A stretch of 64,000 nt of DNA from Chitinimonas sp. BJYL2. GTDB taxonomy: Bacteria > Pseudomonadota > Gammaproteobacteria > Burkholderiales > Chitinimonadaceae. Positions 2,364 to 7,931 of the stretch are shown piece by piece (within the stretch, counting starts at the first letter, position 1; the number at the start of each line of letters is the position of its first letter). The notes under the pieces were generated by a model. That model was not told where the DNA came from and ran no database searches. It saw only the letters and a list, made by a program, of their open reading frames with translations. The DNA is taken from positions 434,001 to 498,000 of the forward strand of contig NZ_JANZKW010000002.1 in NCBI RefSeq assembly GCF_027257935.1, given 5' to 3'. The position numbers and the translations under genes are program-made.

Positions 2364-3455
2364 GTGCGCGAACGCCAGCGCAAGATCATCCACATTGATT
2401 GCGACTGCTTCTATGCCGCCGTCGAAACACGCGACAACCCCAGCTTGCACGGCAAGCCGGTTGCCGTGGGCGGGCGACCTGAAACACGCGGCGTGATTGC
2501 CACCTGCAATTACGAGGCTCGCCGCTACGGTGTTCGCTCTGCCATGGCCTCAGGCCAGGCATTGCGACGCTGCCCCGGCCTGATTCTGTTGCCACCACGC
2601 TTTGAGGCTTATCGCGCCGCATCCAGGCAGATTCATGCCATCTACAGCGACTTTACTGCCCTCATCGAACCCCTGTCGCTGGATGAAGCCTATCTGGATG
2701 TCACTGATTCCCCGCACCATCAGGGCAGTGCCACGCTGATGGCCGAAGCCATACGGGCGCGGATCAAGGCCGAAGTCGGCATTACGGCGTCGGCCGGCAT
2801 TGCGCCCAACAAGTTCGTCGCCAAAATCGCCAGCGACTGGAACAAGCCCGACGGCCTGTTTGTCGTGCGGCCACCCGAGATCGACGCCTTTGTCGCCGCG
2901 CTGCCTGTGGGCAAGCTCTTCGGCGTCGGTCAGGTCACCGCCGCCAAACTCAATCAACTGGGGGCGCAAACCTGTGCCGACCTGCGCAGCTGGCCGCTGA
3001 CCGAGCTGGTACGCCACTTCGGCAAGTTTGGCGAACGCTTGCACGCGCTGTGCCGTGGTATCGACGATCGACCGGTGCGCAACGATTATCCGCGTCGCTC
3101 ATTATCGGTGGAGACCACCTACGTCCACGACCTGGCTGACCTGGCGGCCTGCGCGCAAGCGCTCAGCCCGCTGATTGACGATCTGCAACGCCGACAGCAG
3201 CGCGATCCGGATGCCGGGCAACCCCATAAAACGTTCATCAAACTGCGCTTCAACGACTTTACCCACACAACGGTGGAATGCCTGTGTGCCAAGCCGGATA
3301 CCGAAGTCTGGCTGCGATTGCTGCAGCAGGGCTGGGAGCGGCAACGCAAACCCGTACGCCTGCTGGGGGTGGGGTTTCGTTATGAAGACGAAGACAAATC
3401 TGCCAGCCGCCAGTTGGCACTGTTCGAACCCGCTCACGCAGCCCATGCAGCATGA
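2364..3455 (+). CDS. dinB: DNA polymerase IV (Y-family translesion polymerase)
   Basis: From the GTG at 2364 the protein is 363 residues. It begins with the Y-family palm motif KIIHIDCDCFYAAVE and continues with EPLSLDEAYLDVT (catalytic Asp-Glu) and SAGIAPNKFVAKIASDWNKPDG, with helix-hairpin-helix residues GVGQVTAAKL, all typical of DinB. It copies damaged DNA in the cytoplasm during SOS or stress. The frame is open upstream of the GTG, but no better start is seen. Its stop overlaps the start of the glycosylase gene (ATGA at 3452), so the intact ancestor was a dinB-glycosylase repair operon. An inverted repeat lies just upstream. Confidence 0.93.
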   Translation: MRERQRKIIHIDCDCFYAAVETRDNPSLHGKPVAVGGRPETRGVIATCNYEARRYGVRSAMASGQALRRCPGLILLPPRFEAYRAASRQIHAIYSDFTALIEPLSLDEAYLDVTDSPHHQGSATLMAEAIRARIKAEVGITASAGIAPNKFVAKIASDWNKPDGLFVVRPPEIDAFVAALPVGKLFGVGQVTAAKLNQLGAQTCADLRSWPLTELVRHFGKFGERLHALCRGIDDRPVRNDYPRRSLSVETTYVHDLADLAACAQALSPLIDDLQRRQQRDPDAGQPHKTFIKLRFNDFTHTTVECLCAKPDTEVWLRLLQQGWERQRKPVRLLGVGFRYEDEDKSASRQLALFEPAHAAHAA

Positions 3456-3571
3456 ATGAACGCAAGCGCTGTTTCCCGCCCGTGGTGAATGCGCAGACCC
3501 GGGTATTGATCCTGGGTAGCCTGCCGGGCGAGGCCTCGCTGGCAGCCACGCAATACTATGCGCATCCGCAG
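3452..3571 (+). pseudogene. DNA-deoxyinosine/uracil glycosylase family gene, 5' part (interrupted)
   Basis: The ATG overlaps the dinB stop. Forty codons read MNERKRCFPPVVNAQTRVLI and then LGSLPGEASLAATQYYAHPQ, matching the N-terminus of the uracil-DNA-glycosylase-superfamily DNA-deoxyinosine glycosylases (LILGSLPG...S...QYYAHPxNxFW). After CAG at 3569-3571 the frame enters inserted DNA and stops at 3581-3583. The natural continuation NQFWRLMG is found at 7539. The family removes deaminated bases such as hypoxanthine or uracil. The gene is broken here by a 3967-bp insertion. Confidence 0.88.
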
Positions 3572-3573
3572 AA

Positions 3574-3621
3574 GAAGACTTGAGTAAAGCCCCCTGATGC
3601 TTTCTCGTTCAATATTTGAAC
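3574..3621. repeat. Left-end repeat of cargo unit 1
   Basis: This copy of the shared left end reads GAAGACTTGAGTAAAGC, and about 16 bp later carries the hairpin GTTCAA-TAT-TTGAAC at 3607-3621. Other copies lie at 5450 (diverged), 5605 and 7385. It touches the host codon CAG at 3569-3571 through GAA. Confidence 0.75.
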
Positions 3622-3721
3622 CTTACTTTACGCTTTTAACAAATCAAAAAAAATGGAATTATCCTCAGCCCATGTCAATGCCCATCCACGTAACCCAGAC
3701 AATCTGTTTCCCCAATAAAAC

Positions 3722-4831
3722 TTAGTCATAATCCGGAATACTGGAGTACCGCCACCCACCTTCGGGTTCATATTCATTTGGGTTGGCAAAATACTGATCG
3801 AGCAGCCTGGATTCCACAAGACTCAATGACTCATAGCGAACGTCCCACATGACACGGCCAATCTGTGATATCGATGGTCGTGATTCCGGCTCTTCATTGA
3901 CTGCCCACTCGAAGAGCCGAGGTAGAATTAGTCCGCCCGGTATGCTTAATTCTCGCAGTTCGTTCGCACGTTCCATTAAGCGACTTTTCAGTGCGCCACT
4001 ATAAACCTCTGATGCGTATTCACCCAAGCTAGCGAACGTAACCGGGTTCTGTAATGAGAGAACTCTGTAAAGAAGCATGCCGAGCCCCCAACTCTCATAT
4101 GTGCCCCCAAAATAGCGATTGTGTTGCCAAGGCTTAAAAACCTCAGGGGGAAGACTAGTAATAGCTCCCACGATCATACGTGGCGCTTGAGAGAGCATTA
4201 CGAAGTTGTGATCGGGTTCATCGTCATAGCTCCCCATAATCACAGGAAGCGCCTCCCCCCAATCAAGTACCATTACTGCCGACCTAGAGTCGCGGAACCC
4301 GACCGTAGGCCCCATATGTACCTGATCTTCTGGCAACAGTATTATGTTCCCAGGATGAAAGTCTCGGTGTTGAAAAGACAACGTGGCCTTGGACATTGCA
4401 ACTGCAATGCGATGAAAAACTTCAAGGCGTTTCTCCACATCTAGCGTGTGAGCACGTGCGAGCCAATCAGATAACAATTCACCGTCAACCCACTCGGTTA
4501 CTAATACCATCGATTGCAATTCGTCAAATTGCTCAAAGTGCAGAACTTCCGGGGCAACCCCCTCCCCAGGAAACTGTCTAGTTCTTACAAGGGCATCTCG
4601 TTCCATCAAAAACTTTGCTCGCTCTCCCTCGCCTCGAGGACAGATGAGGTATTTAAAAAATACTCGCTGCCCTGTACTAACATCCGTTCCTGAGAAAGTA
4701 GTTCCTCCAAACGAATTTCCGATATTTTCATCAGCGCGATACCGACCGTCAATTGTGTCAATTCCCAACCTTCTAATTAATGAGAGAGCGCTAGGCGATA
4801 AAGAAGTTTTACTCGAAATGGATATAACCAT
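3722..4831 (-). CDS. Hanks-type Ser/Thr protein kinase-like protein in mobile cassette
   Basis: The 369-residue protein shows kinase landmarks in order. These are a glycine-rich loop (GNSFGGTTFSG, about 38-48), a VFFKY lysine at about 60, the catalytic loop HRDFHPGN at 155-162 with Asp and Asn in place, and a metal-binding DWG at 190-192 where DFG is usual. Further on are a GTYESWGLGMLLYRVL helix (APE/F-helix region) and an ExRPS C-lobe motif. No transmembrane or sensor domain follows, so it is a soluble kinase. Only 9 bp separate it from the 163-residue gene upstream, so they form an operon. Many kinases carried in defence cassettes act by phosphorylating host factors on infection; that role is inferred from context here. 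Confidence 0.8.
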   Translation of the reverse strand: MVISISSKTSLSPSALSLIRRLGIDTIDGRYRADENIGNSFGGTTFSGTDVSTGQRVFFKYLICPRGEGERAKFLMERDALVRTRQFPGEGVAPEVLHFEQFDELQSMVLVTEWVDGELLSDWLARAHTLDVEKRLEVFHRIAVAMSKATLSFQHRDFHPGNIILLPEDQVHMGPTVGFRDSRSAVMVLDWGEALPVIMGSYDDEPDHNFVMLSQAPRMIVGAITSLPPEVFKPWQHNRYFGGTYESWGLGMLLYRVLSLQNPVTFASLGEYASEVYSGALKSRLMERANELRELSIPGGLILPRLFEWAVNEEPESRPSISQIGRVMWDVRYESLSLVESRLLDQYFANPNEYEPEGGWRYSSIPDYD

Positions 4832-4840
4832 ATTGCACTT

Positions 4841-5332
4841 TCATTCATCAATTCCCGGCTGGCGTATTGCTTGAACTCTGCTGCAAACCAACATGATTTC
4901 ATTCTGAGAACGGATCGCAGAAATAAGGTCGTCGCACCTAAATTGCAGACGGCTGAGTAGCTCCCCTATCGACTCGTTATGACTTGAGGTTTCATATGCA
5001 CCATAGAGGTCGTCACACAGTGGACTCCAACAAAAGCAGAAGTCTTCCACTGCGCGTAGAGTTCTTACCTCTCCTACCATATGCGTATATCCGCGCGCGA
5101 CTTCGATCGAACCCGTACAAAAAAGTGAACGTTGTCGAAATCGCACACCGAATTTAGCTTCAAACCAGTTGTCTATCTCCAACTGTACACACAGTGGCAT
5201 GTTCACCGGGAAGCGATCGGTCGGAGAACTTATTGTAACTATCTGTTCGCTGGCACGCGTCGGGAAGCCACGCAATAGCATGAGCCCACCTGCCAATTCG
5301 TCCCATGTATTTGCCGAGTTCCATATATGCAT
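4841..5332 (-). CDS. Unrecognised 163-residue protein paired with the cassette kinase
   Basis: I do not recognise this protein. It starts MHIWNSANTWDELAGG and has no signal peptide or membrane helix. The stretches LLRG near residue 20, RSLFCTGSIEVARGYTH in the middle, and FCFCWSPLCDDLYGAY later vaguely recall the R...STS layout of ADP-ribosyltransferase folds. No E-x-E pair is clear, so this is only a guess. It is the first gene of a two-gene operon, 9 bp before the kinase, and both lie on one mobile cassette. It may be the kinase's target, sensor or effector. A promoter-like TTGATT lies about 60-70 bp upstream on the minus strand. Confidence 0.55.
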   Translation of the reverse strand: MHIWNSANTWDELAGGLMLLRGFPTRASEQIVTISSPTDRFPVNMPLCVQLEIDNWFEAKFGVRFRQRSLFCTGSIEVARGYTHMVGEVRTLRAVEDFCFCWSPLCDDLYGAYETSSHNESIGELLSRLQFRCDDLISAIRSQNEIMLVCSRVQAIRQPGIDE

Positions 5333-5428
5333 AGTTTTGTTTGTTTAGAAGTTAGGAGTGATTGCCGACGATATGTAAAACTACCATACAAAATCAAACT
5401 GATCCGCGCGCAGGCATCTTGTAGAAAT

Positions 5429-5604
5429 ATCAAATTTGCCAGCAATTCAGAAGGCCCAGGCAGCGCTTCATGACACTTATCGATTCAATTGGTGAAATCC
5501 AGCCGAAGATTCCGGCAAGGCCCAAGAAGGGCTTAGACGCCGGCAAACCAGCATAAATTTGAGCTGAATACCCTCAAAAGGTGTCAAATTGACCAGAGGT
5601 TTAA
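5429..5604. repeat. Diverged right end of unit 1 followed by a cargo-less unit
   Basis: At 5429-5449, ATCAAATTTGCCAGCAATTC is a decayed copy of the right end GTCAAATTGACCAGAGGTTT. At 5450-5604 a complete short unit follows. It has a diverged left end (GAAGGCCCAG..GCTTCATGACACTT), then an AGGCCCAAGAAGGGCTT hairpin (5517-5533), and a perfect right end. The cargo-less copy at 7385-7540 matches it over its whole length. Confidence 0.75.
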
Positions 5605-5654
5605 GAAGACTTGGGTAAAGCTTCTTGATACTTCTCGGTTCAATAAGTGAAATT
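5605..5654. repeat. Left-end repeat of cargo unit 2
   Basis: This is near-identical to the left end at 7385: GAAGACTTGGGTAAAGCTTC is exactly shared. With the preceding AA it forms an AAGAAG/CTTCTT hairpin spanning the unit junction. The second inverted repeat (GGTTCA..) is imperfect here. Confidence 0.75.
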
Positions 5655-5683
5655 CATATATAGCTTCTCACAAATACTTTGGG

Positions 5684-6961
5684 CTACTTCTCTATGGCTC
5701 GCTGTAGACGCCCCCAAAGAGGCCGCAACTGGCGCCTAATTGCCTTTGAGTTCATTACCTTGGCCGCTTTATATCCATATCGCAGGAAATTTCGACTCCC
5801 AAGGTGTGAATATCTGGACAGCAACTTTCGCCGGTATAGCGTTTTCTCATCGGCTCCGTTAGCGATTTTTGCCTTGTTCCTGCTCCGCATCGTCTGCTTG
5901 GCCAAACTGACACCACGCTTCATATGGTTTGAGAACTTAGCGAATGCAGCAGAGCGAATAATAGTTTGCTGTCCATCGAAAAGAAAACCAAGGTATTGCA
6001 AAGGTTTATTACAAACAAGGGAAGCCCCATTTTTTGTAAAAACACAGGTATCGGTTTTGTCTGGATTAATTTTTAGTTCTAATTTCCCTATCTCAGAAAT
6101 ACAGAAACTCTCGGTCTCACTGGCAAGTTCTACAGGCATGACAAACAGAATGTCGTCACAGTACCGCATGTACTTACCGCCATGGGCTGTTGCGAACGCA
6201 TTAGCCACAGCATCAAATTCCAGCATATACACATTGGAGAGCAGAGCACTGATTGCCGTTCCCTGTGGAATGCCGCATTTGTTCGGGTTCGTTTTGATCA
6301 GTTTTGCGTCCCGAACTTGCCCCCGGAAGTTAGTAGGGCTGCAAAGACGGTATTTGCCGTTTCCCCGAGGGTTATGAACGGAAATCCCCAGAGCACCGAA
6401 GACTTCATCTCGATCAACATATGCAAACTTGGTCAATGCCTTGTAAACCGCAAAGTGATCAGAAGGGAGTTCTGAGATCCCAAGCAACTGCTTCCAACGA
6501 AGCTTAAGTTGGGCGTGGTCAATCGTATCGAAAAACTTCGTCACATCTAGAGCAACTGCAACACAGTTACCACGAACACTAATCTCATCAAATGCTGACT
6601 TCGCAAAGTTGATGTTGTTCTTACCTAACGAACGGAAAGCGAGCACACAGTCTGCAAGACCTTGCTTTGCAAGATGTAATTCATATAACGCGCCAATTCT
6701 CTCCGCATAAAAACCAAAGATAAGTGAGTCACTATGGGCGGCGTAAGAGATCTCTCGATCCTTATGGTGCCAGTCCAGATGTCCAGTGGTCTTGTTCTGC
6801 TTGATTTTGGTGGTATGTACATTGAAACGAATCAATGGCCAAAAAGCATGAGTCGCCACTGCATTTGGATTAGTAACCAGCGCCATCGCCTTTTGAAGGC
6901 TCAGCGGCTCATCGAAATGCAAGTAACGGCGTTGACGAAACCAAGTAGGTGTATCAAGCAT
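5684..6961 (-). CDS. Reverse transcriptase, DRT2 (UG2)-like antiviral RT
   Basis: The 425-residue protein has RT palm motifs. VALDVTKFFDTID (catalytic Asp at about 139), GIPQGTAIS (about 230-238), YCDD at 267-270, LKINPDKT and LQYLGFLF follow in the right order. The N-terminus WFRQRRYLHFDEPLS and the segment YAAHSDSLIFGFYAERIGALYE are typical of the unknown-group defence RTs. A stand-alone RT of about 430 residues with YCDD and a structured leader fits DRT2, in which the RT copies a partner ncRNA into repeated cDNA that creates a growth-arresting gene during phage infection. There is no maturase or endonuclease domain, arguing against a group II intron. About 400 bp of non-coding DNA precedes it within the same cassette. 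Confidence 0.82.
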   Translation of the reverse strand: MLDTPTWFRQRRYLHFDEPLSLQKAMALVTNPNAVATHAFWPLIRFNVHTTKIKQNKTTGHLDWHHKDREISYAAHSDSLIFGFYAERIGALYELHLAKQGLADCVLAFRSLGKNNINFAKSAFDEISVRGNCVAVALDVTKFFDTIDHAQLKLRWKQLLGISELPSDHFAVYKALTKFAYVDRDEVFGALGISVHNPRGNGKYRLCSPTNFRGQVRDAKLIKTNPNKCGIPQGTAISALLSNVYMLEFDAVANAFATAHGGKYMRYCDDILFVMPVELASETESFCISEIGKLELKINPDKTDTCVFTKNGASLVCNKPLQYLGFLFDGQQTIIRSAAFAKFSNHMKRGVSLAKQTMRSRNKAKIANGADEKTLYRRKLLSRYSHLGSRNFLRYGYKAAKVMNSKAIRRQLRPLWGRLQRAIEK

Positions 6962-6964
6962 GTG

Positions 6965-7350
6965 CTAGCAATTTCAGTAGCAAAACCGAGGAGGGATAAG
7001 ACCGTGGCAATCTTTACCACCCTCCCCGGCTTAACCGAGTGATAACTCATCACCATCTTGCGACACGAGGTCGCGTAGCCACGCGTGTTAGCAATGTCGT
7101 ACAGTTACCTAGAGACAACCATGAGGCTGAGATTCCAAGTTCAGTGGTCAAGTTTGCCCGGCATGGCCGGATGGCTTGACATCCTGTGACATACCCCTGA
7201 TACCGATCTATCAAGGCATGCGCACAATATCATTAAATCCGCTAGCCGCTGAAATCCGAGCTGATATTCACTAAGAACTGGATCAGACAGTAAGAGTACC
7301 GTCGCTGATGATGTGGCCTCGTGTTCGTAAAGCCTCATCGTGGGCAAATC
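6965..7350 (-). ncRNA. Candidate structured ncRNA upstream of the RT
   Basis: The 420 bp between the RT start and the cassette's right end hold no recognisable gene but several strong minus-strand hairpins. At 6987-7030, CCGGGGAGGG pairs with CCCTCCTCGG (10 pairs, one G-U), ending about 25 nt before the RT start codon. At 7058-7074 GCGAC pairs with GTCGC. At 7147-7180 a two-part stem has GTCAAG/CTTGAC outside CCGGC/GCCGG. DRT2 systems encode the template ncRNA exactly here, upstream of and co-oriented with the RT gene. A TTGACA hexamer in the right-end repeat (7361-7366) points towards it. The ends and the template region are not determined. Confidence 0.6.
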
Positions 7351-7362
7351 AGCAATGAAGAT

Positions 7363-7384
7363 GTCAAATTGACCAGAGGTTTAA
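7363..7384. repeat. Right-end repeat of cargo unit 2
   Basis: GTCAAATTGACCAGAGGTTT followed by AA is identical to the right ends at 5583-5604 and 7519-7540. Read on the minus strand it starts the cassette with TTAAAC and contains TTGAC. Confidence 0.75.
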
Positions 7385-7540
7385 GAAGACTTGGGTAAAG
7401 CTTCTTGATGCTTCTCGGTTCAACTAGTGAACCCCCGCGCAAAGCTTCCGACAAGGCCCAAGAAGGGCTTAGACGCCGGCCAACCAGCATAAAATCGAGC
7501 TGAATGCCCTCAAAAGGTGTCAAATTGACCAGAGGTTTAA
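7385..7540. repeat. Cargo-less 156-bp unit at the right edge of the insertion
   Basis: It has the left end GAAGACTTGGGTAAAGCTTC, the perfect hairpin GGTTCA-ACTAG-TGAACC at 7417-7433, an AGGCCCAAGAAGGGCT hairpin, and the right end GTCAAATTG..GGTTTAA. It is a miniature version of the cargo units, as a MITE or empty cassette would be. The final AA is shared with the host codon AAC at 7539-7541. Confidence 0.75.
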
Positions 7541-7931
7541 CCAGTTCTGGCGACTGATGGGTGCATTACTGAACGATGACCTGCATGTGCAACCCTATCC
7601 AGCTCGGCTCGACAAGCTGCAGCACCATGGCATCGGTCTGTGGGACGTGATCGCCGAAGCAGAGCGGCAGGGCAGTCTGGATGGCGCTATCCGTCGCGAA
7701 GTAGGCAACGACCTCACCCGCCTGATTTGCACCTTGCCCGCTCTGCAGGCTGTGGCCTTCAACGGCAAGACCGCCGCCCGGATGGGACGGCGGCAACTGC
7801 TTGCACTGGGAAGCCGGGTAGCCCTGCTCGATCTCCCCTCCTCCAGTCCGGCCTACACACTGGATGCGGGGCTGAAACAGGCTGCTTGGGCCAGCCTGCT
7901 GCCCTACATCCGAAGCGCTCAGACAGGCTGA
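7539..7931 (+). pseudogene. DNA-deoxyinosine/uracil glycosylase family gene, 3' part
   Basis: The frame begins AAC CAG TTC TGG (NQFWRLMGALL), the exact continuation of the HPQ that ends the 5' part at 3571. It then shows YPARLDKLQHHGIGLWDVI and FNGKTAARMG, with LDLPSSSPAYT as the C-terminal H/S-P-S-type motif of the family. Together the two parts give about 170 residues, a normal length. The first internal ATG (7557) could start a fragment, but it would lack the N-terminal active-site loop. The end overlaps the convergent CPBP gene by 13 bp. Confidence 0.88.

Follow-up and report, generated by a model that had tools for sequence, protein, structure and literature searches.

The window, a stretch of 64,000 nucleotides from Chitinimonas sp. 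BJYL2, very probably contains a complete DRT2 system, made up of a reverse transcriptase (RT), its ncRNA and a junction-made Neo protein, that arrived as one unit of a four-unit cassette array. The sequence itself shows the RT family, the RNA scaffold with its handle, where the template begins and ends, the stop-free frame and the junction promoter. With an RT roughly half identical to those it was compared with, the host locus is an additional full DRT2, and the carrier may matter more than the DRT2 system itself.

The reverse transcriptase belongs to DRT2

The predicted DRT2 reverse transcriptase gene (5684–6961, minus strand) encodes 425 aa and carries YCDD at residues 267–270, just as the initial annotation had described for a stand-alone RT. 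That annotation had also called the RT a DRT2, and the Drt2 profiles are indeed several hundred bits ahead of the other RT classes listed. The NCBIfam Drt2 profile NF041746 matches at 555.9 bits (cut-off 390) and PADLOC Drt2 at 610.6 bits, and in each collection Drt2 ranks first. Residues 5–423 align with solved Drt2 chains at up to 440.3 bits (PDB 9c0i, which we take to come from Klebsiella pneumoniae). A retron, a group II intron RT or another UG-class RT would have the RT core in common with this protein, which does give weak matches to those profiles. However, the runner-up class in PADLOC reaches only 88.4 bits, the NCBIfam group II profile scores 64.6 against a cut-off of 300, and an RT-12 scaffold and a template layout are present upstream, so that we regard such an identity as practically negligible. 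The search against UG and DRT class profiles that had been suggested as a check places the RT in Drt2 and not with retrons, group II introns or another UG class. From these profile comparisons, the DRT2 label is secure.

The RT is 49.8% identical to that of G259, a genome of the same class, 49.2% to a Photobacterium plasmid copy, 47.1% to Escherichia coli N921 and 46.0% to a second E. coli copy. The Drt2 cut-off was exceeded in two of 369 class genomes, the host and G259. In a third class genome, G264, the Drt2 match is below the cut-off at 353.8 bits and contains one in-frame TGA. A peptide-pattern search of the genome collection found 17 loci with Drt2 relatives, 21–36% identical (34% for the best by E-value), and the same kind of search of viral contigs found two at 25% identity. 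The DRT2 unit had no blastn match in E. coli genomes.

A structured ncRNA precedes the RT gene

From the RT start (6961) to the repeat edge (7384) there are 423 bp. The initial annotation had proposed about 420 bp of non-coding, hairpin-rich leader here. The length and the folding hold, and a known RNA family lies within; the mechanical ORF listing also places short putative ORFs in the stretch, for example one of 68 aa at 7141–7347. The 280 nt at 6977–7256 (minus strand) fold at −103.9 kcal/mol, compared with a mean of −87.6 for 200 dinucleotide shuffles (z −3.44), and beat all 200 of them. The 3' scaffold of the predicted ncRNA (6977–7090, minus strand) matches the Rfam RT-12 RNA (RF03016) at 73.4 bits, with a gathering score of 44.2, and RT-12 is the sole Rfam family at the gathering threshold in the whole window. 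Directly upstream of ACA-1, folding places a 5' handle hairpin at 7188–7221 (minus strand). A hairpin at this position folds in six of six loci, the host and five others, with stem sequences that all differ, although this count has no shuffle control. A search for a sigma-70-like promoter for the ncRNA gave none, where 2.3 were expected by chance.

RT-12 was present in two of the 369 class genomes under strict filters that lose weak matches, and these are the host and G259, the same two above the Drt2 cut-off. Among seven other loci scanned with Rfam, two were above gathering (Photobacterium, 72.9; G259, 71.7), Nitratidesulfovibrio was just below it at 43.6 and four lacked RT-12. The Rfam scan gave no RT-12 at the Psychrobacter, Calothrix or G264 Drt2 loci.

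The template predicts a promoter and an open frame at each repeat junction

Under the published ACA rule, template copies are joined from ACA-1 to ACA-2, and length, frame and promoter are then read. The RT-12 model starts with UAACA, that is, at the ACA at 7086–7088 (minus strand), which supports this ACA as ACA-2, the template-jump acceptor; it aligns with the CTAACA of homologues. With ACA-1 at 7185–7187, the predicted cDNA template is 7089–7187 (minus strand). This pair (ACA 7187 and ACA 7088) delimits 99 nt, or 33 codons, a length divisible by three, with antisense frame 2 free of stops. The open frame alone is weak evidence: among 20,000 shuffles of the template, 20% have frame 2 free of stops and 51% have at least one such frame. 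TTGACA at 7176–7181 (plus strand), the predicted neo −35, is in place only after head-to-tail joining, and the predicted −10, TACAGT at 7100–7105 (plus strand), matches the consensus at four of six positions. Joined copies read TTGACA-17 bp-TACAGT over the junction, 10/12 to consensus with a perfect −35. The chance of at least 10/12 at fixed promoter positions is 3.8e-5 with equal bases, before allowing for the four ACA pairs examined. An in-frame ATG at 7121–7123 (plus strand), 15 nt after the −10 hexamer, is the candidate neo start. A 90-nt template, from an ACA at 7097, is also divisible by three and open; we rejected it because the promoter spacing is missing and the RT-12 model begins at ACA 7088 instead.

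By analogy with published DRT2 work, the system may be expected to make cDNA, respond to phage, express Neo and arrest growth. The RT would bind the upstream ncRNA through the RT-12 scaffold and the 5' handle, copy the 99-nt template and jump from ACA-1 to ACA-2, yielding head-to-tail cDNA. Upon infection, second-strand synthesis would turn this cDNA double-stranded, each repeat junction would then provide a promoter and a stop-free frame for a repeated 33-aa Neo protein, and Neo would arrest the cell. The whole system would have entered as one unit of a common-end array of four cassettes, inserted in a glycosylase gene.

As in K. pneumoniae DRT2 (PMC12039810, PMC11100668), the host has a YCDD RT with an upstream ncRNA, a handle, template and scaffold in that order under the ACA rule, a 17-bp junction promoter and, antisense to the ncRNA, a frame without stops. 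The two differ in repeat length (99 nt in the host, 120 nt in K. pneumoniae), in the −10 (TACAGT, TATAAT) and in the cassette-array carrier of the host. According to the main text of PMC12039810, the repeat in 42 homologues is mostly 117 nt, with several of 111 or 129. The predicted 33-aa Neo repeat is shorter than the lengths given there and could be useful for asking what the minimum length of a Neo unit is. Search listings and the openings of abstracts yielded no matching repeat length and nothing relevant on "RT-12".

The locus could instead be a decayed DRT2 relative, or one with another output, with RT and scaffold intact but a template too short and a −10 too weak for this host to make a useful Neo. 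The TACAGT hexamer, a repeat below the 111–129 nt that PMC12039810 names for close homologues and the lack of a recognised ncRNA promoter all fit such a reading. However, the RT is full length with its YCDD, the length stays divisible by three with the frame open in the phase of the homologues, the −35 is perfect with a spacing of exactly 17 bp, and the scaffold score of 73.4 bits compares with 72.9 and 71.7 at the other loci above gathering. We consider decay or another output very unlikely and favor a complete DRT2 system.

The ncRNA layout recurs at some other Drt2 loci

The ncRNA tests covered four of 33 plasmid records (H1, H2, H3 and H6), two of three E. coli records and G259, with none of the three phage records that carry Drt2. 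Loci L024 and L005 had the Rfam scan only, and the two E. coli loci the ACA rule only. In G259 the rule gives 111 nt, open in frame 2, with no in-frame ATG in the examined stretch past the −10. The E. coli mip270_05 and N921 loci give 117 nt each, again with frame 2 open. The −10 is TATAAT in the other four passing loci, in contrast to TACAGT in the host. No convincing neo emerged under the ACA rule at the Psychrobacter and Calothrix Drt2 loci.

Applied strictly, the ACA rule fails for the Photobacterium plasmid, where the best pair gives 92 nt without an open frame. When an aligned ATA is taken as ACA-2, Photobacterium plasmid pPHDD1 (L080 2743–2854) gives 111 nt with frame 2 open, and the junction promoter is then perfect, with TATAAT. 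The Drt2 locus of the Nitratidesulfovibrio plasmid (L081 2680–2842) gives 162 nt, open, with one template edge and 161 nt, closed, with another; its neo repeat may possibly be much longer, at 162 nt, though the edge is uncertain.

The Drt2 loci of Photobacterium damselae pPHDD1, G259 and E. coli N921 have the ncRNA layout in common with the host, with repeats of 111, 111 and 117 nt, respectively, instead of 99. Their neighbors, where annotated, differ from those of the host and include a tyrosine recombinase, a DNA methyltransferase, a restriction subunit S and a recombinase family protein.

The insert splits a DNA-deoxyinosine glycosylase gene

As judged by comparison with family relatives, the insert at 3574–7540 splits a DNA-deoxyinosine glycosylase gene, leaving the 5' part at 3452–3573 and the 3' part at 7541–7931 (both plus strand). 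The ORF within the 3' part, 7557–7931, matches TIGR04274 from profile position 42 at 77.2 bits, just below the cut-off of 80; the gene of relative L053 scores 153.7 bits. The gene is stop-free through the insertion point in eight of nine family relatives sampled, and the ninth, a genome 87% complete, had no glycosylase match. We compared the insertion-site sequence in four of the eight intact relatives (L053, L054, L055 and L059), and from these we infer that the empty site in the host was CATCCGCAG-AA-CCAGTTCTGG, with the join ambiguous by AA. The "mobile cassette" of the initial annotation can be kept in the sense of a shared-end insertion whose target gene runs unbroken in relatives. GC content is 46.8% in the insert and 59.6–61.9% in the flanks.

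Four units with shared ends are stacked in one orientation

Direct repeats of 74 nt, 95% alike, flank the DRT2 unit at 5578–5651 and 7358–7431. It had been described as lying inside one repeat-bounded unit; repeats do bound it, but the unit, at 5605–7384, is one of four within 3574–7540. When the last unit's 47-nt left end was used to scan the window, four copies appeared, with 47, 44, 35 and 33 matches and a next best of 25, all within the insert and all in one orientation. These four copies define units U1 to U4. In leave-one-out scoring the left ends reach 28.5–64.0, whereas nothing in the rest of the window exceeds 2.3. A position-weight scan scores the four left ends at 56.9–71.8 and the best right ends at 40.3, while the best in 90 other loci are only 12.5 (left) and 14.9 (right).

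Unit U1 (3574–5449) carries a kinase gene and an orphan ORF; its left end matches that of U4 at 35/47 positions (leave-one-out 34.9, compared with −1.4 in the rest of the window). U2 (5450–5604, 155 bp) is gene-less, and its left end agrees with that of U4 at 33/47 positions (28.5, compared with −2.2 in the rest of the window). U3 (5605–7384, 1780 bp), set by the direct repeats and shared ends, carries the DRT2 system, and U4 (7385–7540, 156 bp), set by shared ends, is also gene-less. Right ends are clear in three units but not in U1, where a degenerate candidate at 5427–5450 scores 9.8 (window best outside the insert, 7.5). It counts for little because chance matches in other loci reach 14.9, and the U1/U2 border is therefore placed by U2's left end. 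U2 and U4, at 155–156 bp, are 94% identical over their right 99 nt, with left ends 33/47 alike. These gene-less units could possibly be solo units or attachment sites. The single-stranded DNA fold of U4 did not stand out clearly from those of shuffled sequences (z −1.07 and −1.31).

The array is unlikely to derive from the host integron

A sedentary chromosomal integron is present in the host on contig C4 (L102 602–6777; G000:C4, about 156602–162777), in a low-GC stretch. Its IntI matches TIGR02249 at 458.9 bits, and its nine attC-like repeats of 119 nt are 69–100% alike to the reference copy.

The carrier could have originated as an integron-type array of attC cassettes, displaced from this integron: the host has IntI and nine attC-like repeats, and the insert is likewise a head-to-tail cassette array, with units in one orientation in both. 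However, one host attC aligned to the insert gave local scores of 18 and 22, not above the maximum of 24 in 30 shuffles, and by this one comparison of sequence, for a kind of site whose sequence varies, the two have no significant similarity. No integrase gene adjoins the array, IntI being on another contig, C4. The unit ends are direct repeats, the array sits inside a gene, and by inspection the join with the host gene is incompatible with a G^TT cut, only AA being ambiguous. With the attC tested aligning at the shuffled level, an integron origin is disfavored, and we hold displacement to be very unlikely. The initial annotation had called the carrier unusual, which is apt for a four-unit shared-end array that splits a DNA-repair gene and is unlike the host integron repeat tested.

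A recombinase acting in trans may have moved the units

That the units stack head to tail, all facing the same way, suggests a site-specific process. SCC elements, too, have units that stack head to tail. One explanation, which we rate as plausible though at somewhat less than even chances, is that the units are non-autonomous and that an HUH (IS200/IS605-like) enzyme, or a site-specific recombinase able to restore its own site, moved them in trans. Besides the stacking, the unit ends have no terminal inverted repeats by eye, the joins have the 2-bp AA ambiguity, and palindromes lie close to both ends: by eye, TTCA..TGAA in all four left ends and GTCAAATTGAC in the three clear right ends. The host genome also has seven tyrosine-recombinase domain matches, IntI and Xer-type included. 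Against this, the insert has no recognised recombinase, its three main ORFs being the kinase, the RT and one without a family, and the host genome has neither a large serine recombinase domain nor an IS110 DEDD transposase (PF01548), which is present in four of 14 control genomes. Moreover, only the host's own copy of the unit ends was found among 200 relatives and 399 genomes of the order. The ends were absent from plasmids and phage records, three exact 22-mers from them had no match in viral contigs, and search listings and abstract openings on such a carrier yielded no matching array.

More tentatively, the units may belong to a new non-autonomous cassette system that carries defence genes, distinct from integrons, with a recombinase acting from elsewhere and with U1 as a new two-gene defence system; we think this somewhat doubtful as a whole. 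With similar reserve, such a system might consist of units, with or without cargo, whose left ends (47 nt) and right ends (24 nt) are conserved and which stack head to tail at one site. If a non-integron array were confirmed, the stacked defence genes would point to an undescribed route by which small defence systems spread.

Unit U1 carries a kinase and an orphan ORF

The predicted protein kinase of U1 (3722–4831, minus strand; 369 aa) matches Pfam Pkinase at 42.5 bits (cut-off 31.7) and resembles PD-T4-6 defence kinases, with a PADLOC PD-T4-6 match at 9.8e-15. Only its own copy was found in the 200 relatives at 1e-20, and none in plasmids at 1e-8. Directly upstream lies an orphan ORF (4841–5332, minus strand; 163 aa) to which PADLOC, Pfam and NCBIfam assign no family; its own copy was the only one in the 369 class genomes, with none in plasmids or viral contigs. 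The profile match is in common with PD-T4-6 kinases, whereas the U1 kinase adjoins the 163-aa ORF, and it is a fair guess that the two genes form a second, two-gene defence system.
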